NCBI GenBank assembly: GCA_014871385.1
Contig: CM026426.1
Coordinates: 31,517,386-31,581,385, forward strand
Source: Ceratodon purpureus
Taxonomy: Eukaryota > Streptophyta > Bryopsida > Pseudoditrichales > Ditrichaceae
Direction of reading: 5' to 3'
DNA: 64,000 bases
In this document: positions 15,591 through 47,177 of the stretch, piece by piece
How the letters are laid out: the number at the start of each line of letters is the position of its first letter
Numbering within the stretch: the stretch's first letter is position 1
The notes under the pieces: generated by a model
Seen by the model: only the letters and a program-made list of their open reading frames with translations
What the model was told of the DNA's origin: nothing
Databases searched by the model: none
Made by a program: the position numbers and the translations under genes

Positions 15591-15605
15591 CGGAAGGAAA
15601 TAGCA

Positions 15606-18265: not shown

Positions 18266-18309
18266 GCAGAAATGGTAGAAAGGGGAAGGAACCAGCGGAG
18301 GAAGGACAG

Positions 18310-19689
18310 TTGTTCAGGGTACAAGGGGTAATGCCGTTGATGCCGGCAGAGGAGAGGGAGAGGGAGCTCCTCCGGACCGCTTTAGAATCTATGGGTTGTG
18401 AGGTCCTACTGGACAAGGCATGGGGTTGGAAGCATGCCCTTCCGGCCCAGGAGATCCTCATCAAGAATCCCGAGAATAGAGGAACCATCCGGGGAGAGCC
18501 GGATAAGTGGACTGCACAACTCTGGAGGGATACGTATGGTTTCAAGAACTCTGGAGAGGTCTCGACACCGGAGACCCGGGAGTTCATATACCGGTATCTC
18601 AAGGGGTCCGGAGATCCGAGAGAAGGATGGGAGCTGGAGGACATCGCGAATCCGGAGGCCCGGAGAGTCGTAGGGTTTATGAACCCTATTTTCCATCCGG
18701 AAAAGCCCAAACGGATAACCATCAAGTGGGCGTCCGTTTTCATTGGGGCCATGATCGGTGAATTCACGGTAGACTGGGGCGTCATGATGAAGACGATAGT
18801 CGACCGGCAGGTAGCCAATCTCCGGAAGACCAAGAAGCAGGCCACATGCCTTCCGTCTTTCCTCATTCACCTCTACCGTCACAAGGGGCTGTTGAGTCCT
18901 AAGGAGATCCGGGAGTACGATGAGATCACAAGCTATCAGCAGTTCGCTGAACCGGAAGAAGTGTCCGATCAGGACGATGATGATGATGTTATCGAGGTCT
19001 CCCCCACGCCGGCTAAGAGACCCCGTCCCAGCCCAGAGAAGGGACAGCCATCCGGATCACCTCGGACCCCCACACCAGCCAAGCGAACCTTGAACACGGA
19101 GGTCCAACAGCCCACCGGACCACCGGAGCACACCGGGGATCCGTACCAGGACTTAGTTAACCTATCCGAGCAGGCGTCAACGTATGCTCGGTTCCTACAG
19201 TCGACTAGGCAGGCGGAGGGCCGGTTGGCTAGGGAGGTAATGTCCATTACGGAAACGGACCGGTTGGAGGATTGCCTGAGTATTCTTCGCAAGCACCGGG
19301 ACTTGGCCAGTCTCCAGAACAAGCACATGGACTGGCTAAAGAAGTACCGGGAGAGGAATCAGAAGCTCGAGCAGGAGGTGCTTGATGCGCGGAAGGATTA
19401 CAGTGACGCCCGTGACCGGGCAGTCGAGGCCATCCGGCCGGTCGCCGAGATCAAGGCCACTTTAGCTCTTCCGGTAGATGTCGCCAATCAGTGCGCCGTT
19501 TACCAAGCCTTCTTGACCCGTCAACCGGATCCGACTGTCAAGAAGATTATAAAGTTCATGCACGACCGGACGCAGGTGATGAAGGACACTTGGACGCAGA
19601 TGAAGAACCTGGTGGAGATCCTCGGTTCCGCAGAGGCCGGTCCGTCATCTGAGCCATCGACAGGACCAGTGAAGAGGGGCAGCGGCTAG
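18310..19689 (+). mobile_element. Element C: gag-position ORF
   Basis: 459 codons. The N-terminal globular part contains KRITIKWASVFIGAMIGEF and PSFLIHLYRHKGLLS, loosely reminiscent of plant transposon-associated domains. An acidic, Pro-rich linker (DQDDDDDVIEVSPTP) and a coiled coil (YRERNQKLEQEVLDARKD) follow. There is no zinc knuckle. Composition matches the pol frame, so it very likely belongs to the same element family. Gag identity is inferred from its place after an LTR. Confidence 0.5.
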
Positions 19690-22024: not shown

Positions 22025-22990
22025 GTGGAGCGTCGGCGCCAACGCATGTGGGGGGATAAAGAGTCCCAAAGTAGAACCGCAGTAGCAGTAACTCGAATTT
22101 TGTCAAGGCATGAAGGTGTAGCCCTCACTTCTCAGCCTGCAATGGCACATATTCAGTCAGAGATTGTGAACAATTTGCTTAAATCGATTGGTAAGAGTAT
22201 TGGATCGGACAAAATTCTTGCTGCTTGCAACCAGGCAGGGGTTTCCCATCAGGGATATGATGCTATCTACAAAGTTATGAAGGCTCCCATTGCTAATCTC
22301 AACAAAAAAGTGAGCGGCAGTATTTTGCCAAGCCCCTATCATGTGAAACTACTTTGGCAGGAGTTAAATGCAAACTTGCCATAGTATATAGGCGAATACT
22401 ACCATGGTGAAGGTTGATTAACGCTGCCAGCAAGTTCTAAGAAGAACAAATCATCTGAGGACATGGTAAAAGAAGTCGTCTTGACTGAGAAGAATTCCTT
22501 TTTCACAAACCTTGAGGTGGTCCAAAGAAGCATAGTGATCTTCTACGGAATCATCGAAGAAGGTGTGTTTCTTCTATCGGTAATGTAAGCACCGCACTTT
22601 GTTGTTTTCAGAGTTTGCTGTCAGCAGGTGCATTTATCGAGAAAATTGTGCCCTGACAACCAATTGCTATGTTTCCACAGAGTTGAGAGGGGCACCGCTG
22701 GTATTTGTCATGAAATTGGACGAGGCTAAGATTGCGGATGGCAAGAAATTTGAACGTGTCAGCATCACGTTGATGAATAGGGCACTCAACACAAACATTC
22801 AGAAGGACTATGCCCTGTTTTTTTCAGTGCAATCGGAGCAAGAAATTTGGCCAGTTGCAACCTTTCAAGTGGAAAGGAGACCTACGAAGTTCTATCCTGG
22901 ATATTTGGGAGATCCAAGTTTCCAGCTGTGATTTCAGCATAGTTGAATGGCCAGAAACTTCAAGTCCCTAAAGTTGGTGAATTCCATGCG
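22025..22990 (+). pseudogene. Gene P, 5' part: transposase-like family, split by element A
   Basis: Coding pieces: 22,025-22,384 (SIGSDKILAACNQAGVSHQG, LPSPYHVKLLWQEL); about 22,440-22,560 (NSFFTNLEVVQRSIVIF, ending at a donor GAAG|GTGTGT); and from about 22,611 after TTGTTTTCAG (LRGAPLVFVMKLDEAK, ERVSITLMNRALN, SVQSEQEIWPVATFQ). The last piece runs to the edge of the LTR element at 22,990. Related coding resumes at 47,788 in the same strand and sense. I believe it belongs to a large, repeat-like transposase-related family, but the family name is not known to me. It is decayed, with in-frame stops (one TAG near 22,944) and a frame slip. Confidence 0.55.
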
Positions 22991-22995
22991 GAGTG

Positions 22996-23631
22996 TGTTA
23001 AAGGATGATTTTACTACACCCTGAAATTCTATTTTGCCCCAACTAAGTATTCTGAAAACCCAAGAAAAATTTGAGTACCCACCTAGCTTTTACTGATTCT
23101 ACTATCCTGCCCTTGGACTGTACTAGGAAAACCCGACTTCCACCCCCTTACAGTAATCAATGCAACACCTCCACTCTCAATTCTCACTGAAACCCTAGCA
23201 TTCAATGGACACCATCATTATTAATTCCAAAGCTCTTTTAACATTACTCTTCAAAAGTACAATGATCCTGGCCTTGATTAGGTCTGTGCTGATACGGTAT
23301 TATCTCCTAACTCCCAAGCTCCTAATTCTAACCTCCATAGCCTCAAGAAAGCTCAAAAGAGTGTGAGAGAGTGAGAGAGAGTGAGAGCCGCCACAGCCTC
23401 CCTCCTCACAACCCTAGTTGCCTTCATCCATCCAAACCCTAGTTGCCTTCATCCATCCGTCCATTTATCATCCAAGTCAAAAGTTCATCCGATTTTCAAA
23501 ACTTCATCCAAAATATAGTAACTGTGAAGTAAGCAATAACATACTGTTTTACAGCTCACCCTAGGTTACTGTACTTGCTCTCTTAATTACTGTTCTTGCT
23601 CCTAGCTAAAGAGTAAAATATACCATCAACA
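22996..23631 (-). mobile_element. Element A, 3' LTR
   Basis: 636 bp. On the plus strand it starts TGTTAAAGG and ends ATCAACA, giving TG...CA on the element strand. A polypurine tract follows at 23,632-23,646. Confidence 0.85.
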
Positions 23632-23915: not shown

Positions 23916-23919
23916 TGAG
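23916..23919. repeat. Probable target-site duplication TGAG, left copy
   Basis: TGAG here and at 36,886-36,889 flank transposon B exactly at matching distance from its inverted ends. Four bases could match by chance; the TIRs and interrupted host element add weight. Confidence 0.6.
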
Positions 23920-23920
23920 G

Positions 23921-23940
23921 GGTGTAAGTAGGCTAGACTC
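23921..23940 (+). repeat. Transposon B left terminal inverted repeat
   Basis: Begins GGTGTAAGTAGGCTAG. It pairs with 36,865-36,884 in inverted orientation with one mismatch. Confidence 0.8.
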
Positions 23941-24519
23941 TATACGTTTTTGAGTCACAGTGCCATTTTCGAAGACAGGTTCAGTTTGCACTTGATATCG
24001 CTTGAACTGAGAAGTTTATTTTCCCATATTTTTTTTTATTAACTAGACATGTTTCATGTAAAGATCCTGTGTGCATTGTCGCTTTCTTGAAAAACCACGT
24101 TCAGTGGGAGAAATTTGTACTTTTAGTATAGTTAGTAAAATGTCACAGGGTGCGTGTTCATACAAAAGTACAAATTTCTGTATCTTGGGAAGTTAAAGTA
24201 CTTTTTTTTTTCGGCAATGAAGATAAGGAGGGGAAGTGGCTTGGAATCTACTCTCACTGTCAAGTCTGCCACTCACAACTGGCAGAAATCTTAGAAACAA
24301 GTTAGTTTTGGTTTGCAATCGATATCTGGTAGGAAAATGAAGCTTTTTTCAATCGGATTGAAGATTCTAGATGCGAGCAGCTAGTTCTAGATTGTCTTTT
24401 GGTTGATTTCAGAAAAAGTAAAATTTACTGTTACTTATGTTTAGGCGCATGATTCTGTCATTTTGATACCCTGAGTACTCTTAGTATATGTTTGTACTCT
24501 GGTCGGAGGAATATGACTT

Positions 24520-24668
24520 AAATGCGCATCCTGGATATTACAGGAAATTCTACGCATCCTGGTTATTACTAACAAACAATGCGCATCCTGGGTATCACTC
24601 AGAAATCAATGCGCATCCTAACGTTTTACTGACAAATCTACGCATCTTGGGTATTAGGGACAAATCAA
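24520..24668. repeat. Subterminal tandem repeat, five units
   Basis: Five degenerate units of about 29-32 bp, each with (A/G)CGCATC(C/T)TGG followed by TATTACT and ACAAATC-like sequence. The position near the transposon end could mean a transposase-binding array. Confidence 0.8.
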
Positions 24669-24901
24669 TTCCTCTTGGACGCCGGTCCTTGGCGACGCCG
24701 CCACTACATCCTTGGCCACGTCATCGTCGTCTCTCTTAGTCCCTCGTCTGCTGGCGCGTCCGGGGTGTTGTGTGATTCTGTGCGTTCTAGGTTGTTATCG
24801 AAGCTTTCCTTGTGTTTGTAATTTTGTCAATCTTTTTTGCAGTGGAGAACTGACGCTCATGGATTCAGAAGTTGTTTGTCTTTGTCCTTGAAATGTGAAA
24901 A

Positions 24902-27900
24902 ATGGTGACGTCTACAGAACGCCCAGTTGTTCTGGTTCAGAAACTTATTACATCATATTTCACTGCAAGTGCTCCTATTGAGTCGGGTTCTCGTAGTTTG
25001 AGGTTGATTAGTGAGAGCAGTGACTCCGGATACGTTTTTTGTTTAAAAACTCCTGTTTCTAAGCAAGGAAATATAGCATTTAATCTAGGAGAGTGCAACA
25101 GAAAGGACGGGTCAAGAAGGCGTGTTCTATTTGGTACCTCACAGTTAGCAATGTATTCCAGCAGTCCCTTCTTTGTTGCAAATTCTCTTTCTTCTGTGAG
25201 ACTTCCCTGTGAGTCTTCAAGTGATAGGTGCTCATTTGTTTCGGCCAGGACGTGAGAAGGTCAATTTACGAGGGTGAGTTACATGACATTCTCATGAAAC
25301 AATGTTGATTTTTCTGGCCAACTTCTTTCTCCATGCATAGGTTACATTGGATCTTGTTAGTTTCGCAACTTTTGAACCACGTACTCTGGTTTCTAGTAGA
25401 CGATTGATGTCTGCATGCCTTTGAACTGTATGTTATTTTGTCCTGGAATGGGTAACGTCGCTAAGAGACAAAGGGTGCGAAATGGCATCAATCGCCCGGG
25501 TCCAGCAGCTAGGGCCACTACAGCTCGCTTCCATGAAGAGCAGCGCACTTTGGAGACTGAGAACGCAAGAGAAAGGAAATCTCGCCAAAGATCACGAGAC
25601 ACAGAAAGACACAAGGAAGCTCTTATTTTAGCGTCTACAGCACTCGATGTTGAGGTGGACGATAGTCTATCAGTGAGAGAATTGAACTGAATCTCACTTT
25701 GTGTAGCGCAGTATTTAGTTTAGGAGTTGAGATGCTGTCCCGGTCCCCAGAGTAGGAGATATGTTGTGGAGAGGGTATTGCGCCATAACACTGTATTGCC
25801 GTTGCTACCTGAGTACTATGCTCCGCCACAAGAAGCCAAGGCCATTCATTCGTTCATTGAGAACTTTAAGAATGAGTTGCAATTAGTAAAGGTGGCTAAC
25901 TCCAACGAGTTGTTAGCCAGGAAGAGTGCTCTATTGGATGCAGCAGTTAGCTTGGGAATTGATGGTGTGAGACCATTGTCCCGTGCTTTGGAAACGTTAG
26001 AACTAAGCATCAATATTGCTTTGAATAGAAGGATTCAGGCCGCTGATACTGAGGAAACGGTGTTAGGTCTTCGCTTACATCGCAAGAAGAGAGAGGGTCT
26101 CTCTGACTACGTCAAAGATTGCATCGAGCTATCGTGGAATGCCCAGACTAAGGTATCCTCAAACAGAAAGGACTTTATCAAACACAAAGTAGGTCGAAAA
26201 GATTGGGCTGAGCCTCATTCGACTCATTATCTATGTGATTGTCAGGTATGTTGATTCTCAGGTACTGTTTAGTCTTTGTTATTATCCCCCTGTTCTGGAG
26301 TCCTAATACAGTGGACCAAAACCTGATACACTTTTCAAGTCGTCCTGAGGAAGTGCTACTTTTTGTATAAATAGTGTTTTATAGTGATTAAAAGATGGAC
26401 ACACTTAGAGAAACCAGTGAGCGTTAGGAGCTGTCTAGTACATCCGGTATTTGGAGTACAATATTAGCCCGGGCCACTAGTATTCCTAAGAATGTGCAGA
26501 ATTGTTCTTATAGTAGTTAAAGGTGTTAATGTATAGCCCGAAGCACTTTGTTCAACTATTGTACAATGCGGAAGTTTGAGCTTGTACATTTTTTACTTCG
26601 AACCTCGAAGGCAGTGTAGAAAAACAAGTCAAGTAGGTGCTCATGTACTTTATGTTGCTAGTTAAGTACCCTGAGTACATATGGCATCGTCAAATATAAA
26701 TGGTACTAGGATGCGCCTGTACTTATGAACAGTTGATGGTAAAGTTTAGAAGAAACTACCAATTTATGTACTTAGTGTATGTATCCAATGTACTATTGTA
26801 GTCTGTCCACTTAGAAACCCAAAGCTGCGAATACAAACCGGAACACATGCATCACTTATAGTACATTGTGGTGATACTTTCTGTACAATTAGTATGTTTC
26901 GTAACTTTGTTATGTACATGGTTTACAAAAAGGTCCTAATTGTACCTATTGTGCATCCTCTTGAGTTTTGCAGACCTCGTTCTTCTTGTGGTTCAAGGAA
27001 GTTCACCCGGAGTGTAGTGTGCGGCAGAGAGCATTTGAGAGGCTGAAGCCGTGGTGGGTGCGGAAATTGAAGGAGAGAAATACATGTTGCTGTATTTACC
27101 ACGTCCAGATGGAGTTCATGAAGATTGGACTGAGGAATCCGCGAGACAAACTGCGAGGGCTACGCGTTCACTGTGTTTGTGTTTGTGTTATTTGCAAAGG
27201 CGATGCAGAGGAGATTTGCCGTGCTGCTGACCACATTTTTGAGCGGATAAACTTATTATGGGAAGCATGTGTGTGTCCGAAAGGAGAGTTTAATGTGTGG
27301 CATAAACTGGAATGCCCTATGGGAGATTGTTCTAGCTGTGGTTTTCATTTGCTCTCATTTTGTCCTCTTGAGAAGTCTGTTTCTAACACATTTTCCTTGA
27401 AGTGGAAGTGTTTCGAGTACTACCAAGTGGGAGTGGACACTCGGACTGGAAAAGCCAAGAAAAGAATTTGGGAGGCTTTCAACGAGACACCGGCACATGA
27501 ATTTTTATCATACATGGAGAAAACCGTCACTACCTTCATCACGCACAACTTCAAAGCTCGATGGCAAGATGAGCAATGCCAGCTGATGATGAAGAATGTG
27601 CCTGAGGAAGTTGTTGTGTCCCACATTGACTTTGCTGAAAATTATAGCTTTGCCATCCAGAATGAGGTGCAAAGCTTGTATTATTTCAGCACAAGTGTGA
27701 CCATATTAGTTCACATTACAATGTGGAAAGAAGGAGACCAGACTTTGAAGCAGACGCACTTTTCTATCTCTGATGACAAATCCCACGATTCTGCTTTTGT
27801 ACAGCATTGCATGATGTTGCATTGGGATTGGCTAATTGACTCTGGATTAACAGCGGAGGAGCATTGGGTCTACAGTGACGGTTGTAGTGCACAATTTAAG

Positions 27901-28569
27901 TGTGCAACAGCTATGTACTTTGTGGCACGGTACCCTGGGCTTACTGGAGGGTGCAAAATGAATTGGAACTTCTTTGAATCCGCTTATGGAAAGGGTGAAT
28001 GGGATGGTGCACGGGTTGTTGTGAAGAGGGCCTTGGCTGCCGAGCAAATCACGAATCCATTGAGGCCCCTGCGAAATGCAGCCGAAGTGGTGGATTTCCT
28101 CGAGGAGAAGTATACAGAACGTGTACCAAGCTCATATGCGCGAGCTACAACTCCCCCTCTTTCTCGTGTTTTTTCGTTGGTTGGAGATACAGCTGTAGAT
28201 CATGTACATAATAGTATCAAGTGCCATACTTTGCCAGGCTCCAAAAGTCTTTATTCTATTTTAGGCTTCTCCATAACAGACCCTACTCTGCTTAGGACTC
28301 GTGAGTTGTCATGCTTTTGTATCCCATGTATAGATGGTGAATGGACTGATTGTGAGAACTCAGCACATGTGCAGGAATGGCGGATTCAAAGGTTGCTACC
28401 CTTTAGCGTTGCTACTGTAGCTCAACAAATCGAAGATATGGACGATGAAGCAAATTGGGTGTATGATGGTATTTTAGAAGAGTTTGGCGATTTGATAGAA
28501 ATTGGTGACAACTTCATGATACCTGCAGAAGAAGGTAACGAAGATGGGGTGGAATATTACATTCTCTAG
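24902..28569 (+). CDS. Transposase gene of transposon B (multi-exon)
   Basis: Phase-consistent exons: about 25,415-25,672 (possible start MGNVAKRQRV), 25,724-26,245 and 26,974-28,569, with junctions TCA|GTGAGA..TTTAG|GAG and CAG|GTATGT..TTTTGCAG|ACC. A frame at 24,902-25,251, ending GAC|GTGAGA, is a possible first exon, but its phase does not fit the next. The last exon starts with a Cys-rich zinc-type region (VHCVCVCVICKG, CPMGDCSSCGFHLLSFC). An RNase H-like DDE core follows: Asp in SHIDFAENY (exon residue 219), Asp in YSDGCSAQFK (302) and Glu in NFFESAYGKGEWDGA (335). Similar proteins occur in many animal genomes as transposase-like genes. No internal stop was found; it ends in TAG. Confidence 0.72.
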
Positions 28570-28930
28570 TGTGTGGCCAAGAAGTTTGTGTTACAAGAGT
28601 CCATGACTTGTCCGTGGGGGGGGGGGAGGGGTATTTAGTGCTGGAGATGCTGTGATTTGAGCAAAATATTTCAAGAAGTATGGGCGTGGAGAGGAGACGT
28701 ACGTGCTTTGTGACAAGGCAGTTCATGCTCATGTAGAGGCTCATCTGGTTCGTGCTTGCAAGTTTACTATGATTCGTGCTTCCCATAGGGTAAAGGGAAC
28801 CCCTGTATACAAGGTGTCCACTGAAACACAACAGATATGTGAAGAAGCCTTACGGGAGTGGTGGGCATTTAATGGTGATTAAGTATGTTCCATTGATCAG
28901 TTTAGGAGGTCCTTCCGAAGGTTGTTTCTT

Positions 28931-29052
28931 TTGGTTAGAAGTATCTGTAGATACTGTGTAGGTTTTGGTCGAAGGATTGGTTAGAAGTATCTGTAGATAT
29001 TGTGTAGGTTTTGGTTGAAGGGTTGGTTAAAAGTATCTCTAGATACTGTGTG
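28931..29052. repeat. 46-bp tandem repeat, about 2.6 copies
   Basis: Units beginning TTGGTTAGAAGTATCTGTAG at 28,931, 28,977 and 29,023, just past the transposase 3' end. Confidence 0.85.
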
Positions 29053-29418
29053 AACCATGAGTATTAACAAATAGTTGTGAGTTTTTAAACTCACTTTCAT
29101 TTGTAATGGTTTCCTATCTGAACCTGTAGTTGCTCTTTGATTCAGTTATTTGTATGTGAGACTTAGAAGTTGTTAACATAGAATGACTCCTTTTTCAGTT
29201 ATTGAAGGTGTGGTATATGGGTGAGGACTAGGACTTACTGTATTGCTCGAGTGCTATGTTTTGAGGAGCCAGAACTTCAAATTTTAATAAGTTCCTGAGT
29301 TGTCAAAATTATGGTTCGAGGGCTCTCTCGGCTGCCAAGACATCTTGAGTTGTCAAGTTTTAATAAGTTCCTCAGTTCCTGAGTACATGTACATTAAGTA
29401 CATTTTGTACATTTACCG
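29053..29418. other. Convergent 3' region between transposase and SET gene
   Basis: No gene seen. It lies between two genes that face each other, so terminators or poly(A) signals of both are expected here. GTACATGTAC-type short repeats lie near 29,382-29,411. Confidence 0.4.
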
Positions 29419-31849
29419 CTAGAATATTACTACCTCTAAAAGCCTGACAGCACGAGTTCTAAGCCATCTGGTCCTACGTGGCTTAGGTGGATATCGGGTT
29501 GATCTTCGCTGATACAAGGTTGGCAACACCTTGTCCTTGCACAAGATACTGTTACACCTACAATGAAAGACAGATTGTGATGGTCCGTTGTGTTTGAAAC
29601 ATGTGCCGTAATCCCACGTCAACTCTTCTCCAACTTCAATGATACGATTCGAAAAGAAGGCCACATGATAGCAGTGGCGATCGACACTCTCAATTGAAAC
29701 ATGTACGTCCACCAGATTCGGATCCCCACACCTGCAATGTCCAGGGACAAGAGTCAGTCCTAGCAAAGAAGTAGAACACAAAGAAACAACAAAAAATGCA
29801 AAATGTATTGTACCTGTGGTTCAAAAATCTGGCCACGTTTCCGAAGTGAGTGGAATCCAAGCACAAAGCACTACTGTCATCTACCTTTTGCTCAGTAGCC
29901 CAGTCCGCATCAACTGCCATACTATAGGTAAGAGAGCCATCTGCCCGCTCATTTCTAACAATGAGTTCAGCATTGGTTAAAATCTCGCCTGTCAATTTGA
30001 AAACAAATTCGCCTTTGGGTATACGCTCAGCTGCTCGAATCCCCCATCCCGTTAGGGCTGTATGAAAGACCTCTAACTGGACCTTCATGCCCTGCTGAAC
30101 AACACGATTGCCAAAGTCACTACTGCACGTGCACTTAACATTACATTCTTTAAGGAAAATACTAGGAACATGACCCTCGCATATTTCCACACCCCTAATA
30201 CATGGGGCACCCTTCTTACAGAAACGTGCATCGCTCTTGTTGCCCCCCTCGATGAACTCATCTGCCAGCCTTCCTCCAAGGTATGCACTCTGACCGCCAA
30301 CATTTGCTTGGCATGAACAGGCAGCATCCGCACCGATGCAACTGTTGGAACATTGACAATAGTCCCCAGGTCGCAGGCTATCAAGTGTCTGAGGTACCAT
30401 TGCTTTATCAAAAATTACACTATTCTGCATGTACTGAAAATAAGGCAAATCAAGATCATTAGAAAGCAACTCGGACAGGAGTCTTCTCCTGCCCCTTAGA
30501 CAAATCTTCAGCATCATACCAAGTTTCACCCTGATTATTATCACATCCCAACAACCAAGCTTCCCACGTCTTATTCCAAGCAAAAAACTGAATCAATGTC
30601 TTAAAAAATACCAATGAATACACGAAGTGTGTTAGATTGACATTCAAATGAAGCCTTGGTATGAGGGAGGGATCCTCACAATCTGTTGTATTAAAAAAAA
30701 GAAAAACGCACAGTAAGAGCTCACCATTGCAGCTCAGTGGACCAAATCCCAACTATAAATGCACTGAAAAAAAAAACCACTGCTCTAGACCTATTTTGTA
30801 GTGGCACCCCTCGCCTGTTTCTGCGAGGAAGTGCCACCTACCTTTTGACCCTTTCTCTTCTTCACTGTGACCTTGGTAACCACTTCTGCCTCACCTTCCT
30901 AAGCAGTACGTGATCTGGTCTTTTGACTTGTGTCTGAAACTGGACCCGGACTATCGGTACCCCGAGGAAGCTCTGATAAGTCCTTCAAAGTCCTCTTCCC
31001 TATGGAGTACAGATTCTCAGGGGCGACCATATTTTCTGGTTCTAAATCATCTAACTCTTTCTGCTCCTTTTCACTCCTTGCCTTGACCTCCCGTGGTGAT
31101 GTCAACGCTGGTTTAGGGAGTAGCTCTTATCCCGCCTCCACTGCCGTAGCTGGGGCCTCGACTGCCACCGCTGTGGTGTGAACCTCCTTCGAGACTGGCA
31201 ATTCTTCAACCAAACGCTCAAGCGTAGAAGCCTTTGGCGTTGTAGCCTCCACCTGCTGCACCCTATCCCCCAACCCTTCTCCAATGATGTCCTCAAAGTC
31301 CTCTTTGCTTTTGACTGCAATCCCTTTTCGTCGCTACCCTACCAAGCATTGAGATCCTGATTTGGACACCACCGGGCTTCTACCTCCACCTCTCTCTAGC
31401 TCGATCGCAATCCCAATCGCCAATCCCTCCTTTTCCCCAGAAGGAGCTCTCGAAAGTCCTAACTAGGGCCTAGGACGCTCCTAAATGTGAAATCTAGCGC
31501 TGCCATGGCTGCTCTCCAATGAAGTCATGCCACAGTCTTTGAACTCTGCCCCCTCACATTCTGAAATCTCTAGTTGAGAGTCCTCCTGGCCTTGTAGCGT
31601 AGGGTCTTGCAGACTCAAATTTGTCTCCAGTTCTTGCTTTTCCCCTTGTGTAGCATCCTTGGAATCAACGTCATTCTCTTCAATGATATTTGAAAGGTAC
31701 AATAACACAATCACATGATACCTTACTGTACCCCGAATACAAAGAAGCCTCACCACAAAAAAGAACAGAAATAGACATGAAGCAATAAAAATGTACAAAG
31801 TATAGAAATGTACAAAGACTTGCACCACAGAAAGTATAGGAATGTACAT
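29419..31849 (-). pseudogene. SUVR4-like histone-lysine methyltransferase, cargo of transposon B
   Basis: The C-terminal half is clear: pre-SET cysteines (CQCSNSCIGADAACSC, CKKGAPC), then GWGIRAAERIPKGEFVF, GEILTNAELIVRN and RFLNHR at 30,433-29,814. After an intron (CACAG|GTACAA .. CATTGCAG|G), the next exon at 29,731-29,419 gives a CGDPN continuation, EELTWDYG and the post-SET CRCNSILC. This matches plant SUVR H3K9-type enzymes. The last pre-SET zinc ligand is Phe (SSDFGNRVV). A frame slip or splice lies near 30,470. The N-terminal frame (31,849-30,842, acidic, ending at donor AAAAG|GTAGGT) has TAG at 31,481, 31,463, 31,334 and 30,899, and TAA at 31,127. It is probably inactive, unless introns or readthrough explain these. 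Confidence 0.75.
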
Positions 31850-32070
31850 TCAAGGAATAGAAATGTATAAGAAATAGAAATGTATAAAGAATAGAAATGT
31901 ACTAAGCCAAAAGGATGTACTGAAAATACAGATGTACTCCCCATAACGCACTCTAAGTAATCTCAAAACAACACTGTACTAAAAAACGAAAACGTACTTA
32001 GAATACCACTGTAGAAAGATTACCAATGTACTCAGAATACCAATGAACTAAGAATACAAAGCGTACAACT
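31790..32070. repeat. Degenerate GTAC-rich short repeats
   Basis: Repeated AATGTAC, ATAGAAATGTA and GAATACCAATGTAC elements spaced 12-20 bp, between the SET and RING genes. Similar GTAC richness is seen in the transposase intron (26,290-26,960). Confidence 0.6.
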
Positions 32071-32099
32071 AGTAAATAAAGTTCTATAGTATTTCTGTT

Positions 32100-34532
32100 T
32101 CATGAAAGTAGTGGTTTAGTAGTACTAGGCCTAGGGAGCGTGAAGTACCCGTTGTACTCAGAAACCAACCGTTCAATATTGTTTTCCTTAAGCACCTAAG
32201 AAACAAAGTACAAAGTACATAGAAAATACCTGTTGTAGGTCCTCCCAGTACGTTCTTGTTTATGGATCCTGTAGTCAGCAAAAAAAGAGTATGTCAATGA
32301 AAGTCCTCAAAGTATCCTTATAGAACAGAAGTGCCTAACCACAACTAGCAAGTACTAATCGTCTACATGCGGTGCAAATGGTGCATCATGTGTGGACTTT
32401 TAGCAGGGCAGAGAATACAAAACATAGCCTCTAATTATCTAATAGGGAACATGTACAAGTCGTAATGTACAAAGAATTCAGGGAAGGAACAGAATCACAT
32501 GAATTACATAAGAAGTAGAAACCCTGAAAGCAAAAACCATAAGTGTACATGAATTCACACGATTTGAAACACATATCCAAAGCCTCGGTTAAAACCCAAA
32601 CTTACCAATTGCCGGTAACTTGGACCTAGCTTGGTCTATTCTGTCCTTCATAATTCTCTTCCTCTCTTCAGCCAACCCAAGCGTTAATTCCCTTTGTGAT
32701 AGCTCTGCATCAGGCTCTCCCCAACCAAAGCTTTGATGCTACGCTGGATGAGACAACTTGAAGCAACCCTCAGCCATACACTTGCAATTTTGAGAAAAAA
32801 CAACTGAAGCACAAAAGGGATGATACAAATGCTTGCACGAGGATACTACAATGTCACTCTGAGGAAATGGGAATGAACACAAACTGCAAGTAGTGATTCT
32901 AATAAACTTGCTGTCATCCCAAAAATCACGTGATGGCGAAGGACGGTCCCCGAGAGAGTACACCATTGGCCATGGTAAGCAGTTCAATGTACTCCTTTCT
33001 GCCGTCAGCTAAAATTTTTCCGCTGCTAGAGCATTGAATTGTAGCTGGCTCGTTTCCAAGCTTCTTGTCAATGACGCCATGGCAGCTTCAGCCTTCCCGA
33101 GCTCCACTCTTGCGGCTTTCACCTAAGCAGCCTCCTCCTCCATCTGCTCTTGAATTCCTTCCATCTTTATCATTTTTTTGAATGTGTCTTTGCCTGATTC
33201 CTGAAGTGTCTTGATGAATGCCTTCTTCTGCACCTCCTGCTTCTGTAAGGAAAGCAAGCCCTAATCAGATTGCTTGCAATTCAGCGAACATTCTTCAAGC
33301 CTCTGTCTTGCCTCCTTCTTCAAGCCCCGAAGGTGTTGCTGCTCCAAATGAATTGCCTCCATCAGCTATCTCACTTCTAGCAAGCGCTCGTCAAGAACCT
33401 CCTTTTTCAGAACCAAACCTGTGAATGCCCCTCCAGCAGTCTCTTGCACGCAAACCCCTGAAGCCATCTTGGACTCCTTGCCCGCACCATTGCAATCACC
33501 GGTCGAGACAGCTGTGGAGAGACGTCGCGACTTCATTGCATTTCCCCTCTCCTGAGAGCCATCGAGCAGGGCCCTCTTCTTCCCGTTGCTTTCCTCCTCC
33601 CTCTCCGTCTTCACCCTGAATTCCCGCCACTCCTTGCCTCGCACATCCAACTTTTTCTTCCCCTCCGCAGTGATGGACGCAGCCATGGCTTTCTTCAGTT
33701 CTTCGAGCTTTTGTCGGTCCAAGGTGTATCGACTGCGCTGCCCCTTGTTAGTCTCCTCCCCAAACGCACACCAGTTCACCCTACCGCAACCTTCTTCGTA
33801 CTCAAGCGCCACCCCTTCTGCAAAATGAATTGTAACAAGATTTAGTGTTTCATCCTCTCCATGCTGATAGAGGATTGGGTGCAAATACCTCACTCTTTGT
33901 ACAACCTCCTGCACATTGCAATCACCCCACGCATACCCAGCCCTACCCAATTCCCAATATGGCTTCCTAAAGAGCTTCCTCAAAGTCTCTGCAAGGATAG
34001 TGTTCTTGCAAAAGTGATGGGGGTTCTCGCCTTCGTCCTCAAGTGCAAACTCCGTCTTGAAATCGATCTTCTTCAGCTGTCGGGGAGGCTTCTTCAATCG
34101 CGCGATTTTGTCCTCAACGTCCTCAACAGACCTATATACCTTGAGCGGTCGATCCTTCCCCTTCTCCTTCGTCTTTGCAGTAGTTCTCTCACCCCCGACT
34201 TGCAGCTCCCTCAACTCCCCCTCATTACCGCTTGGCACACCCGATCTCCCTGAACGCGCCGCTAAGCTGCTGGACTTCGACCGCTGCTCTTCAGACTTCA
34301 GAGGAGCTTCGCCGACGCTCCCAGAATCCCAATTCCCCTCCTTTGCTTGCGCACCTCGCTGGTTCTCTTCTTCAATTGCTGAAACTACAGCGCCTTCTTC
34401 GGGGCTCCCCAATGCGCGCTTCCCCTCCAGCCCTTGCGCATCCTCGAGGTCCTCGTTCTCCACAACTCCCACCTTCTGTTTTGGGCGCACACGCCCCATT
34501 TCGATACTCCCTTGCAACTGCCCTAAACCCAC
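32100..34532 (-). CDS. Coiled-coil/RING-like gene, cargo of transposon B, five in-frame TAG
   Basis: One frame runs from ATG 34,532 to a donor at 32,606 (AATTG|GTAAG), with no TAA, TGA or frameshift over about 640 codons. TAG codons lie at 33,366, 33,261, 33,123, 33,009 and 32,739. Order: acidic/basic N-terminus; a globular domain (EFALEDEGENPHHFCKNT, YLHPILYQHGEDETLNLV, CGRVNWCAFGEE); a Gln-rich coiled coil; and a RING-like finger (CSLCSF, SSCKHLYHPFC, CKCMAEGC). Small 3' exons are likely: 32,269-32,231 (after GACTACAG) and about 32,190-32,100, ending TGA. Layout parallels the RING gene at 7178-9684, so an E3-like role is possible. Confidence 0.6.
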
Positions 34533-34864
34533 AATACCGAAACCAAACTCTCGAACCTACAAGCAGCACGTCGTCACAAGTTTAGAAACCAAAGTGGCGC
34601 GAAGGCAATACAATTCTCGCTTCTCCAACGAGAGAGACGACGGTGACCGGGGATCACCAGTCACTCTACTTTGAGACTACTAGGGTAACCGGTGGGCAGC
34701 GGTCACCTAAACCTGCAGAACTGGTCATCTAAGTAGATGTGACACATAGGCTCCAATCCCTCACCTAAACTTTCACATTCTGAAATGATGATTTCTGCAA
34801 AAGATCAAGTCCATTTTCTAAAAAGTTTTTAATGGTGGCCCAATTTAATCAAAAACTGACACTC
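34533..34864. other. 5' flank of the transposon B RING gene
   Basis: Likely promoter and leader. No CpG array of the 1-11 kb type was found here. Confidence 0.4.
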
Positions 34865-35990
34865 AGAAATTAAAAAATGGAAATCACAAATATAAAAATG
34901 AAGATTAAAAATCAAAAAAATGAAGATCAAAAATTAGAAAATGAAAATAAAAGGAAATAATATGAAAATCAATAATCAAAAAATCAAGATCAAAAAATAG
35001 AAAAAGAACATCAAGAATAAAAAAAATGAATATAAGAAATACAAATAAGAAAACAAAAAATAACAAAAGAAAGTCAGAAATTAGAAAATGAAGATCAGAA
35101 ACACAAAAACAAAGATCAAAAATCAAAAAATGACTACGTCAAAATCAAACAATGAAGAATAAAAATTCAAATGAGGAAGATGAAAAATCAAAAAATGAAG
35201 ATCAAAAAATAAGAAAATGAAGATGAACAATAATAAATGGAGAACAAATTTGAAAAAGTGAAGATAAAAATTCATAAAATTTAAAATAGTACACCTACAC
35301 TTCCAACAAATAGTATTAAACTTGAGAGCTTGCATTGATTTATATACCTTACATATGAGAGTTTGAAGTTTATCAAATTCCACAATTAGTGAAACTAAGT
35401 TGTATAATTAGTGAAAGTGAAGTGAATTCAAAATATAAATGAATTCTATGAAAGGGCCTGGTAATAAATATACTATTAAATTTAAAATTCATCAAAATTT
35501 AGAATTCACTTAGTTCCACTATAATTGTAGAAGTCTCAAAACTTCAAATTCTCATGTGTAAAGTGTATAAATGAATGCAAGCTCCTAGGTTAAATATTAT
35601 TTGTTAGAAGTATAGGAGTTTTATGTTTAATTTCTTGATTTTTGATCTTCATTTTTGGATATTTGTTCATCAATTTTTTTTTTGCTCATCTTCATTTTTT
35701 TATTTTTTGATCTTCCTTTTTTTGATCTGCGATCTTCTCTTTTGGATTTTTGACAAAACAATAAGACCAATCCCAAATCTCTGATTTTTAAATAATCTTC
35801 AATCTATGATACTCAATCTTTAATCTATGATACTCAATCTTAATCTATGATCTTTAATTTTTAGTCTATGATTTTTGATCTTTAATCTTGATTTTTAATC
35901 TTCTATCTATGATTTTTAATCTTCAATGTATGATTTTCTTTCTTCAATCTATGATTTATATTCTTTTTATTAACATGTACCTTATAAACA
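34865..35990. repeat. Long inverted repeat (foldback), AT-rich
   Basis: Left arm about 34,865-35,400, made of AAAATGAAGATCAAAAATC-like units, ends in a unique stretch with GAGAGCTTGCATTGATTTAT. The right arm, about 35,500-35,990, carries the reverse complement (TAAATGAATGCAAGCTCCTA, then TTTTTGATCTTCATTTTT units). The loop is about 100 bp. This is probably a foldback or MITE-like insertion in transposon B. Confidence 0.7.
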
Positions 35991-36083
35991 AAACAAATTA
36001 CTAATGAATAGATCCCTCTATTAATATAAGCTATATTGAAATTCTTTAAATTTGTTTTGATTTTTAATCTTCATAATTTAGAT

Positions 36084-36150
36084 CTGACGGACTAGGGGGC
36101 TTGGGAGGAGATCTGACGGACCAGGGCGCTTGGGAGGAGATCTCACGGTG
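36084..36150. repeat. Short tandem repeat GATCTGACGGA..GGGAGGA
   Basis: Two clear units (near 36,082 and 36,110) and the start of a third, about 29 bp each. Confidence 0.65.
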
Positions 36151-36377
36151 GAGGTGGTGGGGGAAGCAGAGAATATTTTGACATTATAAGGTTTAATGAC
36201 AATTGAAATCCAAGGCCACGAAGTTTAATTCTCATCTGAAGGACTGGGCACCTGGAGAGGAGATCCAACGGTGGAAGTGCTCGGGGAAGTACAAAGCACA
36301 TCATAATTGAAAAGTTTGTTGAACAGTCCCCAGAACAAAGTGGACACTGCTTTATTCGCATTGTAGGAGATTCTTAC

Positions 36378-36736
36378 ATACCCATGCTCATGATTCAATT
36401 TCAGCCCTAGATCAATCCAACTGTTTGTCAGAGACAAAGTACCGCAATTAATTAATTCATTTCTCTCAAATATGTCGCTCCATGGCTGTTGCACAAGGTG
36501 GATCAAAATTAATCAGCGTGCCAGAACTTCATTCCCATATGCCAGAACTTCAATCACATCTTCTAATGTCCATGCTTTCGATTCAATTTGAGCCCTCGAT
36601 CAATCCAGCTCTTTGGCAGTGACAAAGTTGAGCGATTAACTAACTCATCTGCAACAGATATGTCTAAACCTGGGGCACGGGACGCTGGATCAAACTTAAT
36701 CAGCCTGCCAGAACTTCAATCCCATTTGCTTAGGTT
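36378..36736. repeat. Direct repeat, unit 187 bp, two copies
   Basis: Units starting near 36,381 and 36,568, both with GATTCAATTT, AGCCCT.GATCAATCCA and TGCCAGAACTTCA. They lie just inside the right end of transposon B. Confidence 0.75.
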
Positions 36737-36864
36737 CAGGGATCTCATTGGCACATTATTTTAGACCAATATCAACGGCCGAGATCAATTCTGTAGAAGT
36801 ACCTTCTGCACTATTTTGTACACTAGGTTCTAAACTGTACAAAGGGATTTTGCCAAAACTGCTT

Positions 36865-36884
36865 GAGTCTAGCATACTTACACC
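36865..36884 (-). repeat. Transposon B right terminal inverted repeat
   Basis: On the minus strand it begins GGTGTAAGTATGCTAG. Partner of 23,921-23,940. Confidence 0.8.
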
Positions 36885-36885
36885 G

Positions 36886-36889
36886 TGAG
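36886..36889. repeat. Probable target-site duplication TGAG, right copy
   Basis: Matches 23,916-23,919. Confidence 0.6.
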
Positions 36890-39800
36890 CTCGAATCTAG
36901 TCCTTGTGCTAACAATGGTGAAACTTGTCCTGGTGCTGAGGATGTAGGGTCTGATGTCGGTCCTATTGCTGTCAATGTTGGTTCTCCTACCACCGTCACT
37001 CGTTCTTCTGTCCATCTTCTCCTCCAGTTCCTGATGTTAGGCCAGTAATGCCTCGTAAGTCGGCTGCCGTCCATCTTGCTGCTCTTGCATCTGCTTAATG
37101 CGGGCAGTCTCTGAGGGCACTGCTTGCATTCACTCCACTAGGTGCCCAAGTTGGATAGCTACCTCTGTTTTTGCTGCGCCCGTGGATCTGAATGCTCCTC
37201 CGAGGTTCCTTGGCGCTAGCATCTCAGTATCAAGGATCTCTCTCACCTCCGGTCTCTGCTCTTCTGCTAACGGACAGCGCTCCTGTTCCCTCCACTGGGA
37301 TCTAGATCTGTTTGGAGAGTCCCGATTTTTTCCTTCCTGGTGTGAGGTCCTCATGGTCAGTAAGGTCTTGGATGCTTCGACTGGTGTCTCCCCCTCGGGT
37401 ACCTGCTTCCCTTTATGGGCTTGCTTTTGAGACCGGGTGTTCAGTGTCCGTCTTGCATCCCAGTTGATAGCTCCTTGTTCCACCTCCTCTGCTTCTTTGG
37501 AATCCAGAGATTTCGAGGAGCAATCCTTTTACTTGGGGCGGCGCTCTTGCTTCCTCAGTCTCTTTAGGGTTGCGCCTTGGTCTCTTGGAGTCCCTGAGGT
37601 TGGATGTCTTTTCCTCTTCTTTCCCCTCGCATTTCTTGGCTGTCCAGATGATGAGGATGACTGATGCTCCCTTCCCACCTTCTGGTCCACTGCTTCTTTT
37701 TCAAGGGTCTTACCTCCTTCTCCCCTAGATCCCTCTCCACTGATTAGATCAGGTGGTAGCTCACCTACTGTCCGCACGTGTGTCGGGTCTGGTTGGCCTT
37801 CACTTCCATCATCAATCTCCTCTTCACATGGATGAACTGGACCACGTTCCACATATTCTTCTTCATCCGGTAACCAGGTTGTTGAGCAGGGCATCAATCA
37901 AGTCTGCTCCCTTGATTTCCCTGTTCTCGCTGGTATAAACTGGGATCAGCATCTTCCTGAGGCTGAAGAGTATCAACAGTGCTCAGCTGTGGTCTCCACA
38001 CTTTACTGCCTGATACATGTTCTCTAATAGTTTGTTGCTGGCATAGACGAACTTCTTCTTGACACACATGATCTCCACTAGAGCTTTAACTCGATCTTGA
38101 TAATCCTCCGTGAAGCCCTTAATCCTGGTCACGTCAATATTGTGGTCGGCCTTGGTCAATCCGAACATCTTCATATACTTGGGGTCCAAGTCCGTGCTGG
38201 CCTTCGGGATCATAGAAGTTTTGGCTCCTTCTATCCCTAGAGCCTACTGGATCGTCCATGCCGTGATCTCTACTGGTATCCTTCTAACAGTAGCTCTGAT
38301 AGGTGTAGTGTATTTAGACTTCTCTCCCTTCACGTACTGGAAATCTTCCACAAAATCCGACACCAACTCTGATCGGGGGACTGACCAGGCGTATTTGTAG
38401 AAGGCCCCCAAACTGACCCTCTCCGCCCATACGTCATCCTTCAATTCCCTCCAACCTTGCCAATACTCAAGAGGGATGAAAGTGAGCTGAATCGACGTTG
38501 TTCTCTTCTTCTCCAACACGATCTTCTTTTGTGCCCTTATTAAGGCCTCCGTCAGTTTTCTTCTGCTGCCTCCTCCTGCGTTCTGAATTTCCTCCGTGCC
38601 TGGTCGTGTTCATGATCCTAATTGCTGGTCTCCTTCTAGTGTCACCTAAGATGGCGGCGGTGGTAAGTCCCCTCCTTCCGCCTGGATCTCCATCTATTTG
38701 GGTTCCTCCACTGTCCCGGTCCTGGTCATGTAGCTGTGCAGGGTCTCCTTCGCTCCTGGTCTGCTCGGTGGTGTAACCTCCTTGTGACTGGAGCCTCCAC
38801 TGATCACCATGTCTATCCTCTTCTCTCTTTCTCTCGGCTGGACTATTTCTTCCTCTACCGTATTTTTTTTGCCAATCCCCAAAGTAAGGATCGGCCTTTG
38901 ACTTCTATTGTCTTGACTACTATCCGGATTATTCTCTTGGTCTCTCTGTCTTTCCTGCCCTTCTAATTCAGTTCTCTTCTTTGTAACTCGGACTATCCCC
39001 CCATTCCCTTTTTGGTTCTTCCTTTTATTTTTTCCTTTGTTCTCTTTCAAAAACCCTAATCAATCTCCATTGCTCTATCTTTTCCCTAATTGGACTGCTA
39101 TGTCCCAAAACTCTATCTACTTCAAACTGAAACCCCCTCCAAAAGTTCGGAGTTGTAAGAGTCAACTGGTTGTGCTCATTCTGTCGTGGTTGAACTTGGT
39201 GCAGCTGTCTTTGTCCTGATGTCCGAAGCTGCTTCCAGCTTCCGGTGCAGTTGTCTTCTTTCTCTTCTAGCGGCTGCCCCGTCAATGCTCATCCAGTCAT
39301 CCGAGCTGCTCTCTCTTCCTGCCCTTCGCGGCTTCGTCTCTGGTCGCGGTCGATCTCCTCTCCTCTGCTACTGGTTTGAGCACTATTGCCGCCTAGTGTT
39401 TTGTCCCCTCTCCAGCCGCAATGCTCCTTTGCCCACTGCTGCCGCTGTTTCTCATCCAACTTCTTCCAATGCTCCTCCTCTTCCAGCTCCCATCGGTGAT
39501 CTTCCTCAAGTCGATGTCGCTCGTCCTCCAATCGCCGTCGCTATTCACTAAGGTTTAGCGCCGCCTCTCCTTTTGGCCTTGAGTTCACTGGGCCGCCAAC
39601 TTGTTCCTTCCCTTTTGCCACTTGCTCTCTCGCCCTTCCTTCGTGCTGCTGGTTTCTCCTTCCTTGGTAAGTGACTGTGCCTTGATACTCTTTCCCTGGT
39701 TGCTGTTTTCCTTCCCTACTACTCTGCTGCTGTACCTGTTCTTCTTCCTGTTTAAATAAGGGTATCACCTCTAGTACCTCGCATCCTATCATTTTAATAC

Positions 39801-40150
39801 TGTTCTTTGTCTCAGCTCTCTCTTCCCTATTGTCTTTTTCTCCTATTTTTTCTTTTTGTTTTAATTTTTTAATTTCCTCTTTTTTCTTATTTTTTTAATT
39901 TCCTTTATTTTTTCAATTTCCTCCTTCATGTTTCCTTCCTTTGTCTACTGTCCCTTCTCTTGGTTAACTTATTGTTCCCGGTTCTCTTCTTGGTCTTGAT
40001 TTTCTTCTTTTCTTTTGTCCTTTTTATTTACTGCCTCCCAGCTTCTCATTTTGCTGTCCACCTGGTCCTCTGTAGCTGTTTCATTTGACCCTACCTGGCC
40101 ACTATCCCTCTTTTGATCTTTGACTTGTCCTCTGGTCAACTGTCCTGGTG
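36890..40150 (-). mobile_element. Element A: third coding region
   Basis: Downstream of integrase on the element strand. Charged, Gln/Glu-rich low-complexity coding is followed by a conserved-looking part (FIPLEYWQGWRELKDDVW, YKYAWSVPRSELVSDF, MFGLTKADHNIDVTRIKGF) and a Pro/Ser-rich tail cut by transposon B near 36,886. The remaining end lies at 23,640-23,915. It is not a usual Ty3 protein. The function is unknown, and it is broken in several places. Confidence 0.5.
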
Positions 40151-43100
40151 TTCAGGTTTCTACCCATGCTTTGTCATAAAACCTATAAGGTTTTAATTTA
40201 TTAATGTTGACCAACACAGGGTTTGGTTGAAAGTTTTTTACCTGAACCAGCAGAGCGATATTGTTGGGGAGTCTGTACTAGACCCTATAAGGTCCAAACC
40301 ATCGAATTTTGAATTTCCCTACGTACTCCTTGTGGCCTTTGGGATACCAAAGTACATAATCCCCCACTTGGAAATCTTTTCTCTTGTAGTGATGCTGGCT
40401 CTATAATGCTCTGTTCCATTGTCTGATCTCTACTGCTTCTCAGGCCTCCTGTCTTAAGGTATCCATTTGCTCCAAATCTGCAATCTTGGCTCTCAACACT
40501 TGTGTTCGTATATATTCGATTTTGGAGTTGGTCCTCCCGGTCGCTTCGATGTACTCTTTTGCCATTATTGGATGCAATCCATAGACTGGTTGGAATGATG
40601 TATACCCTGTTGTCAATTTATAGGAATGCCGGTACGATAGTAGGTTAGTATGAAGGTGCTCATCCCAATGTGTTCTCCTTTCGTTGACAATTTCGTTCTC
40701 CAATACTTTCATCCCATATCATAGATGGTTTTGCTGCCATACTGGCCACCAAGGTCGCTAGACCAATATTGGCCATGCCTCCCACTCGCTGACACCTGTG
40801 ACATGCCTTACAGTACTCCAAAACATCCCGATGTATTGCTGGCCACCAGTACTCGGCGTCCAAAAATTTTCAAGTGGTGATATCTTGCAAAAAATGACCT
40901 CCAGCTACCCCATTGCGCATCTCCTTCATCACTATCTCTGCCTGAACTAGGTCTAGTACCCTCTTGACCACGAGATCATGTCCCCTCTTGTTTAGATTTC
41001 CCTAGACCAGTGTATAGGGCAGTCACTTCAAAATTAATTTCCGCTTCTCCTCCTTGGACAAATCTTGTCGCACATCACCACATTTTAGGTAATTACGAAC
41101 ATCATCTAACCATTCTGGTTTAACATAAAACAAACTTGCATCCTTGGTCTGGTCCTCAATATTAGTTGTTGGTTCTCCATTGGGCAGCCTAGACACCGCA
41201 TTTGTCACTATGTGATTTTTCTCTGGCTTATACACCTCTATAAAGTCATACTCTCGAAACAGCAGTAGCCATCTTGCTATCCTTCCCAATACATGCGGCT
41301 TATTGACCAGATACACCAATGCCATATGGTCAACATAGAAAACAAATTTATTTCCTAGCAGATAATGCCTATACTCGTTCAGAGCATAAACCATAGCTAA
41401 AGCCTCCCTTTCAGTAGTACTATAGTTCCTCTCAGCAGAATTCAGCAGTCTACTGGCATAAGAAATGGGCTGGTCACACTTCCCTGTTGGATTTTGGGCC
41501 AGCATCACTCCTAGTGCTATATTCGAAGCATCCGTATGCACATGGAACTCCAGGTCCCATCTTGGTGCAATGAGAATTGGCGCATTCTGGTATTGCTCCT
41601 TGATTTTCTTCCATGCCTGCTCACACAGGTCTTTCTCATGAGCCTGGTGATTGGCTCCATGATATGTGCGTACGACTTAATGTAGCACCTGTTAAACTGG
41701 GCAAAACCGTTAAAAACCTGCACATCGTGGGCTTTTCTTGCTTGGGCATCTTCTCCACTGCTTCAAACTTTTTTGGATTTGGAAATTTCCCTTCCTTAGA
41801 CACCACATGGCCCAATATGATACCAGAGAAGATGAGTAATAAGTTCTTCTGAGGGTTCAAACTTATACCATACTCACGGCATTTCTCAAAACACTTCTTT
41901 AGCTTGTGCAGGTGACTTATAATGTCACTGTACACACTGAAATCATCTAAAAACAATTTCATAAAATCACCAATGAAATCACGAAAGGCTTTGTTTACTG
42001 CCCTCTGGTATGTGGGAGGTGCGTTTTTCAGCCCAAAAGGCATGACTATCCACACAAATGCTCCCCAGTCCGTTACAAAAGCAGTCTTGTGCCGGTCCTC
42101 TGGTGCTATCTGAATCTGGTGGTACCCGGAGTACCCATCCAGAAACGAATACATCTCATGTCCTGCCACAGAATCCAACACTTCCTCAGTAAATGGTAAT
42201 GGATATAGGTCCTTTTTAATGGCAGTATTTTGTTTACGGAAGTCAATACAATTTCTCAACTTTCCATTCTTCTAAAGAACAATAACAATTGGAGATAATG
42301 GCATGTAGCATCCTGTACTCGTGTAATGAATTCGGCCTGGAGCAGTTTATCCAAATCCTGCTTCAGAATACTGGTGTAATTTGGATACATTCGATATCTG
42401 GCCTGATGGGATGGTGGTATATCCTTCTTGTGTTTAAACCTGTGCTGCGCAATCGAACGTGGAATACCCTTCAGGCCCTTATATGTCCAGGCAACCACAT
42501 CCTTGAACTCCCTGATAAGGCCTCTGCCTCACTCGCTTGTTCCTGAATAATGTCCGCGTTAATCTTCAAGTACTAGGGTTTCTCCTCAGTTCTAAGATTA
42601 ATCTTGTATAATTGCTCCGACTCTGGTAAGGTCTAGGTAGCATTCTTAAGTTTCATCACCTTCTCTCGGGCTGGTGTCTTATCCACTTCAATATCGCCTT
42701 CTTCAAAGTTGTAGAAATGGTCTAGGTAGGCTCGCTCAGGTCTCTCCTCCTATTCCTGGTCCTGGTCATTGTTTTGGTCCTTGTTCTACTCCATACAGGA
42801 AAGAGTGACGATTCCAACGGCCAGTAAGTCCTACTCACTAGCTAACGACATGGCTTCCTTCGCATCAGTCAATCCCTCAATAAAATTATAGCAGACTAGA
42901 ACTTCAGGTAATTTAGGAACTGGGCCATTTCCGCTGACTGATTGAGATGGTTTTTAAGGTGCCATTACCTCTGATAGTGACCAGGTTGTTACCCCAATCG
43001 TGATTTACTTTAGCATCAATTAATCAGGGTCTGCCTAGCAACATAATATAAGCCTCATTGACTTCTTTATTTTTTATAACAGTCAAGGTAATAAGGTAAG

Positions 43101-46910: not shown

Positions 46911-47177
46911 AATACTGGCAACTATCCTCCCTCTACTTTGGAGCTATTTACAATTCCTATTGTCACGTTGACTCCTTGATATTGGCTCCCTACCACGAGA
47001 TTCTAGAGTTTGATCCCCTCAGCCTCGGAATGTGCTCTTGCTGCACCATTGTGGTGGTCCTCGAGCAGTTATCCCCTTCTTCGGCCACTATGCCTATCCT
47101 CAGTTTTACCACTGTCCTCGTACTGTGCAGGGTTGCAGCGAGAGCCACCTAGTTCGGACTTAATGCATGGTCGCTAA
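46911..47177 (-). mobile_element. Element A: leader between 5' LTR and gag
   Basis: No clear coding. A primer-binding site starting with TGG right after the LTR could not be identified. Confidence 0.4.

Follow-up and report, generated by a model that had tools for sequence, protein, structure and literature searches.

The 64-kb window analyzed here (contig CM026426.1 of the Ceratodon purpureus assembly GCA_014871385.1, positions 31,517,386 to 31,581,385 of the forward strand; all coordinates below count from its first base) contains a 12,966-bp unit at 23920–36885. The unit has the anatomy of a DNA transposon with terminal inverted repeats (TIRs), and it carries on its minus strand a SET-domain gene of the Su(var)3-9 type. 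The two TIRs, identical at 19 of 20 bases, lie at 23920–23940 on the plus strand (20-bp core 23921–23940) and at 36865–36885 on the minus strand (20-bp core 36865–36884). With up to three mismatches allowed, the pattern of the two ends occurs at only two sites in the whole 64 kb, 0.01 being expected by chance, and two sites were reached in none of 100 shuffles. The tetranucleotide TGAG, read directly, abuts the unit on both sides (23916–23919 and 36886–36889), so that the locus shows the inverted ends and the flanking target-site duplication that together define a TIR DNA transposon. The outermost base of the unit is unlike between the left and right ends; the mobile unit may start one base further inward, and a 4-bp duplication would then still be the best reading. 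An earlier, first-pass annotation of this locus had proposed both the ends and the duplication, and both were borne out.

The unit interrupts a long terminal repeat (LTR) retroelement that extends over approximately 22996–47786 on the minus strand. Its LTRs, at 22996–23618 and 47178–47774, are direct repeats (554 of 623 positions identical) that flank the transposon; the hexamer GGAGTG stands outside both of them (22990–22995 and 47787–47792), and the reverse transcriptase (41636–42271) and RNase H (41023–41676) of the host retroelement lie on the minus strand. With these features the interrupted LTR element that the annotation had described is confirmed. What argues for an insertion is the pair of inverted ends, the TGAG copies beside them and the location of the unit between the two LTRs.

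The SET gene lies inside the unit, on the minus strand. One exon (29814–30592) encodes, by Pfam, a Pre-SET domain and the first half of the SET domain; it is followed by an 82-bp GT-AG intron (29732–29813) and by the last exon (29419–29731), which on sequence and structure match holds the second half of SET and a post-SET-like CxC...C. Splicing raises the SET score: the unspliced frame 29690–30592 matches Pfam SET with an E-value of 1.7e-11 (44.9 bits) and Pre-SET with 8.5e-7, and the spliced product reaches 74.3 bits for SET (cut-off 22.4; E 1.2e-20), covering 105 of 105 profile positions. Pre-SET is borderline: its cut-off is 29.1 bits, and it scores 29.9 before and 28.6 after splicing. Among solved structures the best relative of the spliced protein is EHMT2/G9a (E=1.9e-34), with the motifs NH-C-DPN, GWG and EEL-x-x-DYG aligned between the two; PDB 3bo5 (SETMAR) is also among the structure matches. 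Pre-SET plus SET with its catalytic motifs is the layout of a Su(var)3-9 histone methyltransferase, here with the Pre-SET part at the borderline, and the annotation's assignment of a Su(var)3-9-type enzyme to the minus strand is upheld by these domains and by the EHMT2 match. The annotation had also left it to be checked whether an open SET gene exists: in the present copy the catalytic part is an open frame, and the parts that flank it hold several stops. Upstream, a low-complexity stretch (30794–31677) that we take as the leader of the SET gene has four TAG and one TAA in frame, and a change of reading frame is suspected just upstream of Pre-SET. We presume that the plant SUVR1/2/4 group is the closest to this gene, from the spellings NHRC and LTWDYG; NHRC.DxN and EEL-W-DYG are spellings of SUVRs.

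Also on the minus strand, upstream of the SET gene, is a frame of 635 codons (32592–34499) with five in-frame TAG, which by eye looks like a coiled coil and contains a RING-like zinc-binding segment (32742–33008). Several RING models match this segment, the best being zf-RING_16 (E 0.00095), whose 19.2 bits fall short of its cut-off of 27.4, followed by zf-RING_2 (E 0.003). The RING-like gene of the annotation is therefore retained under a weak label, since all these matches are under the cut-off. It is plausible, at roughly even odds, that the RING and SET parts are one gene. A GTAAGT donor lies at 32605 on the minus strand, just before the TAA that ends the RING frame, and would open a possible intron at 31678–32605. 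This stretch is GTAC-rich and holds 17-bp tandem units, a degenerate one at 31784–31906 and a related one at 32000–32057. The minus strand of the element has only three GTAAGT in all, of which a second lies inside the right end. Seven acceptors in the interval 31640–31760 were tried, and three of them (31725, 31677 and 31644) keep the frame open into the SET leader. About one in three would do so by chance, which makes the acceptor side a minor argument and the donor the stronger one. Accordingly, the two cargo genes of the annotation are present as SET and RING-like frames on the minus strand, and their number is in doubt, as they may form one gene through the GTAAGT donor.

The combined RING-SET frame of this copy is decayed, as its several stops indicate. 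We considered a recoding of TAG to glutamine, suggested by five TAG and no TAA or TGA within 635 codons, and rejected it. A neighbouring pol frame of 705 codons has 16 CAG and no stop (a soft argument, as it was chosen as a stop-to-stop frame), and TGA stops, seen by eye, also break the pol of the host LTR element and the end of the transposase. Deamination of methylated cytosine, turning CAG into TAG, explains the TAG stops; CpG stands at 0.59 of its expected number in the element and at 0.42 in the remainder of the host retroelement.

Elsewhere in the window, on the minus strand at 7178–9762, there is a coiled-coil-looking frame with a RING-like stretch of its own (zf-RING_2, E 0.0026, under the cut-off). 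Kinship between the transposon RING and the gene at 7178–8449 (BLASTP E 0.002 over 45 residues) is not claimed, nor is it for the other comparisons of neighbouring frames, in which one pair gave an E-value of 0.17 and the remaining three 4.4 or worse.

On the plus strand, open frames between 24899 and 28569 fit one multi-exon gene, a probable transposase on the order of its motifs and its position. A possible N-terminal exon (24899–25255) and a basic, probable exon (25400–25687) precede a putative exon at 25724–26245, the frame of which is open to 26254 and which ends in a CAG/GTATGT donor. The predicted intron that follows (26246–26973; 728 bp, GTAC-rich) has GTATGT...TTTTGCAG borders and leads to the main putative exon (26974–28569), a 534-aa frame open from 26965 and closed by a TAG stop. 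By inspection, the acidic residues in HIDFAENY, YSDGCSAQFK and FFES/KGEWDG of this exon follow the order of an RNase H-like DDE domain, a motif set that also occurs in transposase-like proteins, so far uncharacterised, from plants and from animals. The 3' end of the gene looks broken: after the TAG stop comes a 73-aa open frame in another phase (28661–28879), preceded by a TGA and probably what decay has left of the transposase C-terminus.

Database searches returned no relative of this protein. The 534-aa exon and the 176-aa and 118-aa frames matched no Pfam family at E-values up to 1, in a single-sequence scan that a far relative could escape, and the main exon had no match in PDB at an E-value of 5. 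With tblastn at 0.01 we found no relatives in plasmids and phages, and a pattern search gave one stretch in viral and 17 in prokaryote contigs, none of them confirmed. The transposase motif patterns themselves occurred at three and four loci in viral contigs and at least 119 stretches in prokaryote contigs; because tblastn of the main exon against those 126 loci found nothing at an E-value of 0.1, we regard them as chance. The DDE-like transposase of the annotation is thus a putative one, named from a D-D-D/E motif order seen by inspection and from its place within the element.

The two intron-like stretches, in the transposase gene and between RING and SET, resemble each other in make-up. GTAC, a word singled out after inspecting the sequence and the number of which the shuffles do not preserve, occurs 16 times in the transposase intron (mean 5.2 and maximum 12 in 200 shuffles), 22 times in the RING-SET gap (mean 5.7 and maximum 12 in 200) and 75 times across the whole element (mean 28.4 and maximum 36 in 40). 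Read in the sense of their genes, the intron and the gap have 23 9-mers in common (mean 6.1, maximum 16 in 200 shuffles); between sense and antisense there are nine, a number reached by 28 of 200 shuffles. For 8-mers the counts are 61 in sense (0 of 200 shuffles) and 33 in sense against antisense (8 of 200), and for 7-mers both directions exceed all 200 shuffles. The simplest reading, at which these figures hint, would make the two stretches introns of a single unit that has evolved as such for a long time; common evolution of cargo and transposase is hinted at because intron and gap share both the GTAC-rich make-up and the sense 9-mers. Other repeats lie nearer the ends: a 29-bp tandem repeat with 3.4 copies near the left end (24521–24619), another of 29 bp with 2.4 copies near the right end (36080–36148), and at 34847–35965 an AT-rich palindromic and tandem patch, possibly a small nested element, in which 21-bp repeats form an imperfect palindrome (GC 0.23–0.24 over 35001–36000). 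The observed/expected ratio of CpG is 0.59 in the transposon, 0.42 in the LTR retroelement beyond it (36886–47790) and 0.92 at 1–22990, a contrast that would reflect neighbouring stretches of unlike age or methylation history.

We interpret the locus, with a probability of about 0.58, as a decayed copy of a large cut-and-paste transposon that sits in an older LTR retroelement and carries a transposase on the plus strand and, on the minus strand, a gene of the Su(var)3-9 kind, possibly SUVR1/2/4-like and maybe encoding a single RING-SET protein. From this anatomy, the plus-strand transposase would move the element by cut-and-paste, inserting it into the older retroelement with duplication of TGAG. 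The cargo gene may start with the coiled-coil/RING-like part and, if both parts are on one transcript, yield one RING-SET protein. By analogy with its family, the enzyme would act on chromatin at the element or at its targets, either by adding methylation at histone H3 lysine 9 (H3K9) or of a related kind, or as a competitor of the host's silencing complexes, and the outcome could be a tuning of the element's own silencing or of its choice of target. A cargo protein that works without catalysis is conceivable as well, because, according to passages of PMC4260354, SUVR1 and SUVR2 are inactive in vitro and SUVR2 has a role in silencing that does not need its catalytic residues. The copy is probably dead now, given the stops in its RING-SET frame and the broken C-terminus of its transposase. 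Compared with the picture drawn by the annotation, the element, the duplication, the LTR host and the SET gene stand, the RING part is weak and the gene count is in doubt.

Several results weigh against this interpretation. One copy of the unit only is known; its ends were not found in viral contigs, the only collection searched for them. No relative of the transposase turned up in any collection searched (Pfam, PDB, phages, plasmids, viral and prokaryote contigs), and the single-sequence AlphaFold model of its main exon, with a pLDDT of 32.8, was unusable and was not used. Each RING model that matches falls below its curated cut-off, where a RING E3 ubiquitin ligase would be expected to pass it. 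WIYLD, the domain that marks SUVR4, was found in none of nine fragments of the window, the decayed leader being scanned piecewise. Because the shuffles do not keep the number of GTAC, the 9-mers in common are in part the GTAC excess counted again, and an intron habit common to the whole host could also explain the GTAC-rich make-up. Finally, a candidate sign of a clean insertion had to be rejected. When the flanks are rejoined, without the unit and with one TGAG, a minus frame of 133 aa spans the junction, and so do a second one of 97 aa on minus and two, of 74 and 61 aa, on plus; a frame of at least 133 aa was also obtained in 594 of 2999 joins in which the right break was shifted, and at 710 of 2000 random places of the host element, so that chance joins do as well and the junction frame is no evidence.

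An alternative that we regard as rather unlikely is passive capture, in which a TIR transposon once took a host SUVR gene, and maybe a separate RING gene, introns included, and has since carried it as a functionless passenger. Transduplication is known from MULEs and CACTA elements, and the retained intron means that the gene arrived as genomic DNA; the decay of the leader and of the RING part through stops, the single known copy and the weak RING label are all in keeping with it. A mere passenger would not be expected to show, despite several stops in the flanking parts, a fully open SET catalytic part with its core motifs kept, and the sense-oriented GTAC-rich patches in the intron and the gap hint, with the reservations given above, at a common history instead. 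Far less probable is that a host gene segment lies trapped between unrelated TIR-like ends, or that SET and RING were brought by later nested insertions. The single copy would allow this, as would the AT-rich palindromic patch at 34.8–36.0 kb, which may be nested, and the frame across the rejoined flanks lends nothing to a clean empty site; but a single insertion is defined by the ends (0.01 expected), the TGAG copies that flank them and the location of the unit within an LTR pair, and among the 25 longest of 219 inverted-repeat pairs at 22.9–48 kb none encloses the SET-RING part only.

A bolder form of our interpretation, compatible with it and itself doubtful, makes the cargo an E3-methyltransferase machine, in which the RING part would attach ubiquitin to a chromatin protein, a histone or some other, and SET would then methylate H3K9, in the manner of SUVR4 with ubiquitin. 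The in-frame join from RING to SET leader at the GTAAGT donor speaks for it, as does the report that SUVR4 binds ubiquitin by WIYLD with a shift of its H3K9 product in vitro (passages of a review, PMC7218100); the RING part under its cut-off and the failure to find WIYLD in the scanned fragments speak against it. In the same spirit, and only marginally less doubtful, the unit could represent a plant or plant-like transposon family outside Harbinger and MuDR with a standing fused coiled-coil/RING-SET gene, a ubiquitin-linked H3K9 methyltransferase for its own copies or landing sites.

Were a transposon to carry an H3K9-type writer, it would be a test case for self-restraint, for target choice or for a decoy of host complexes: H3K9 methylation is the mark that normally silences transposons, and the best-known anti-silencing measures of transposons, those of the plant Vandal proteins and of fungal TET/JBP, remove or block marks. 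Should RING and SET be one protein, the element could further serve to probe whether ubiquitin and methylation of the SUVR4 type are linked, as has been proposed.

Outside the transposon, a 479-aa open frame on the plus strand (18250–19689) follows a Gypsy-type pol (15555–17672) and is perhaps an extra retroelement gene. On the minus strand, 2722–4053 matches DUF659 (E 7.2e-36), a domain that occurs in plant hAT-type transposases.

Among known links between SET enzymes and DNA transposons, SETMAR of primates arose when a mariner landed next to a host SET gene and was then domesticated; here, in contrast, the SET gene sits within the mobile unit. The length of the duplication separates the unit from MuDR/MULE elements, which make duplications of 8–9 bp, whereas TGAG has only 4 bp and no MuDR/MULE family matched in Pfam at an E-value of 1. 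Sola elements, TIR elements too, have a 4-bp target duplication, as found here on both sides, and a DDE transposase; because the duplication is 4 bp, Sola is our first guess at a superfamily. We know of no SET or RING cargo in Sola. Passages of PMC9033089 list Sola1 for the moss Physcomitrella and report it also from Capsicum.

The annotation knew of no described transposon family with such genes, a statement overtaken by SET-encoding transposons of Phytophthora that are already in print. In Phytophthora, SET is encoded by transposons of the HarbingerS and MuDR families, as PMC12730594 states with reference to Kojima and Jurka (Repbase Reports 2014). Like the unit described here, with its SET methyltransferase gene inside the element, they are DNA transposons carrying a SET histone lysine methyltransferase gene; compared by description, theirs have oomycete hosts and Harbinger or MuDR transposases. 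The present unit differs in its 4-bp duplication, in its extra coiled-coil/RING part and in that neither Harbinger nor MULE models matched at an E-value of 1, the single-sequence Pfam scan for a Harbinger-type DDE transposase having returned no family. The same source describes TET/JBP-carrying transposons of fungi and the anti-silencing proteins of plant Vandal elements (PMC12730594). The former resemble our case in that several unrelated transposon lineages bear an epigenetic enzyme, and differ in that the enzyme is a DNA dioxygenase, not a histone methyltransferase, and the hosts are fungi.

The cargo itself is best compared with SUVR1/2/4 of plants, with which it has in common the layout of Pre-SET, SET and a post-SET-like part, as far as passages of PMC7218100 and PMC4260354 describe it. 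SUVR4 is reported to bind ubiquitin through its N-terminal WIYLD, and ubiquitin to alter its H3K9 methylation product in vitro, passages of PMC7218100 being in conflict on which product accompanies ubiquitin. Unlike these proteins, the gene described here has no WIYLD found, lies inside transposon ends and follows a coiled-coil/RING-like frame. In the literature searched (titles, starts of abstracts and part of the matches, with Repbase Reports and most subscription journals outside), no plant DNA transposon with a SUVR-type SET or a RING-SET fusion was found. Taken with the Phytophthora elements, the unit looks like a member of an already known kind, the SET-bearing transposons, set apart, on one copy, by the length of its duplication, by the missing Harbinger/MULE match and by its RING-like part; its lineage is probably that of a plant transposon, possibly a Sola-like one.

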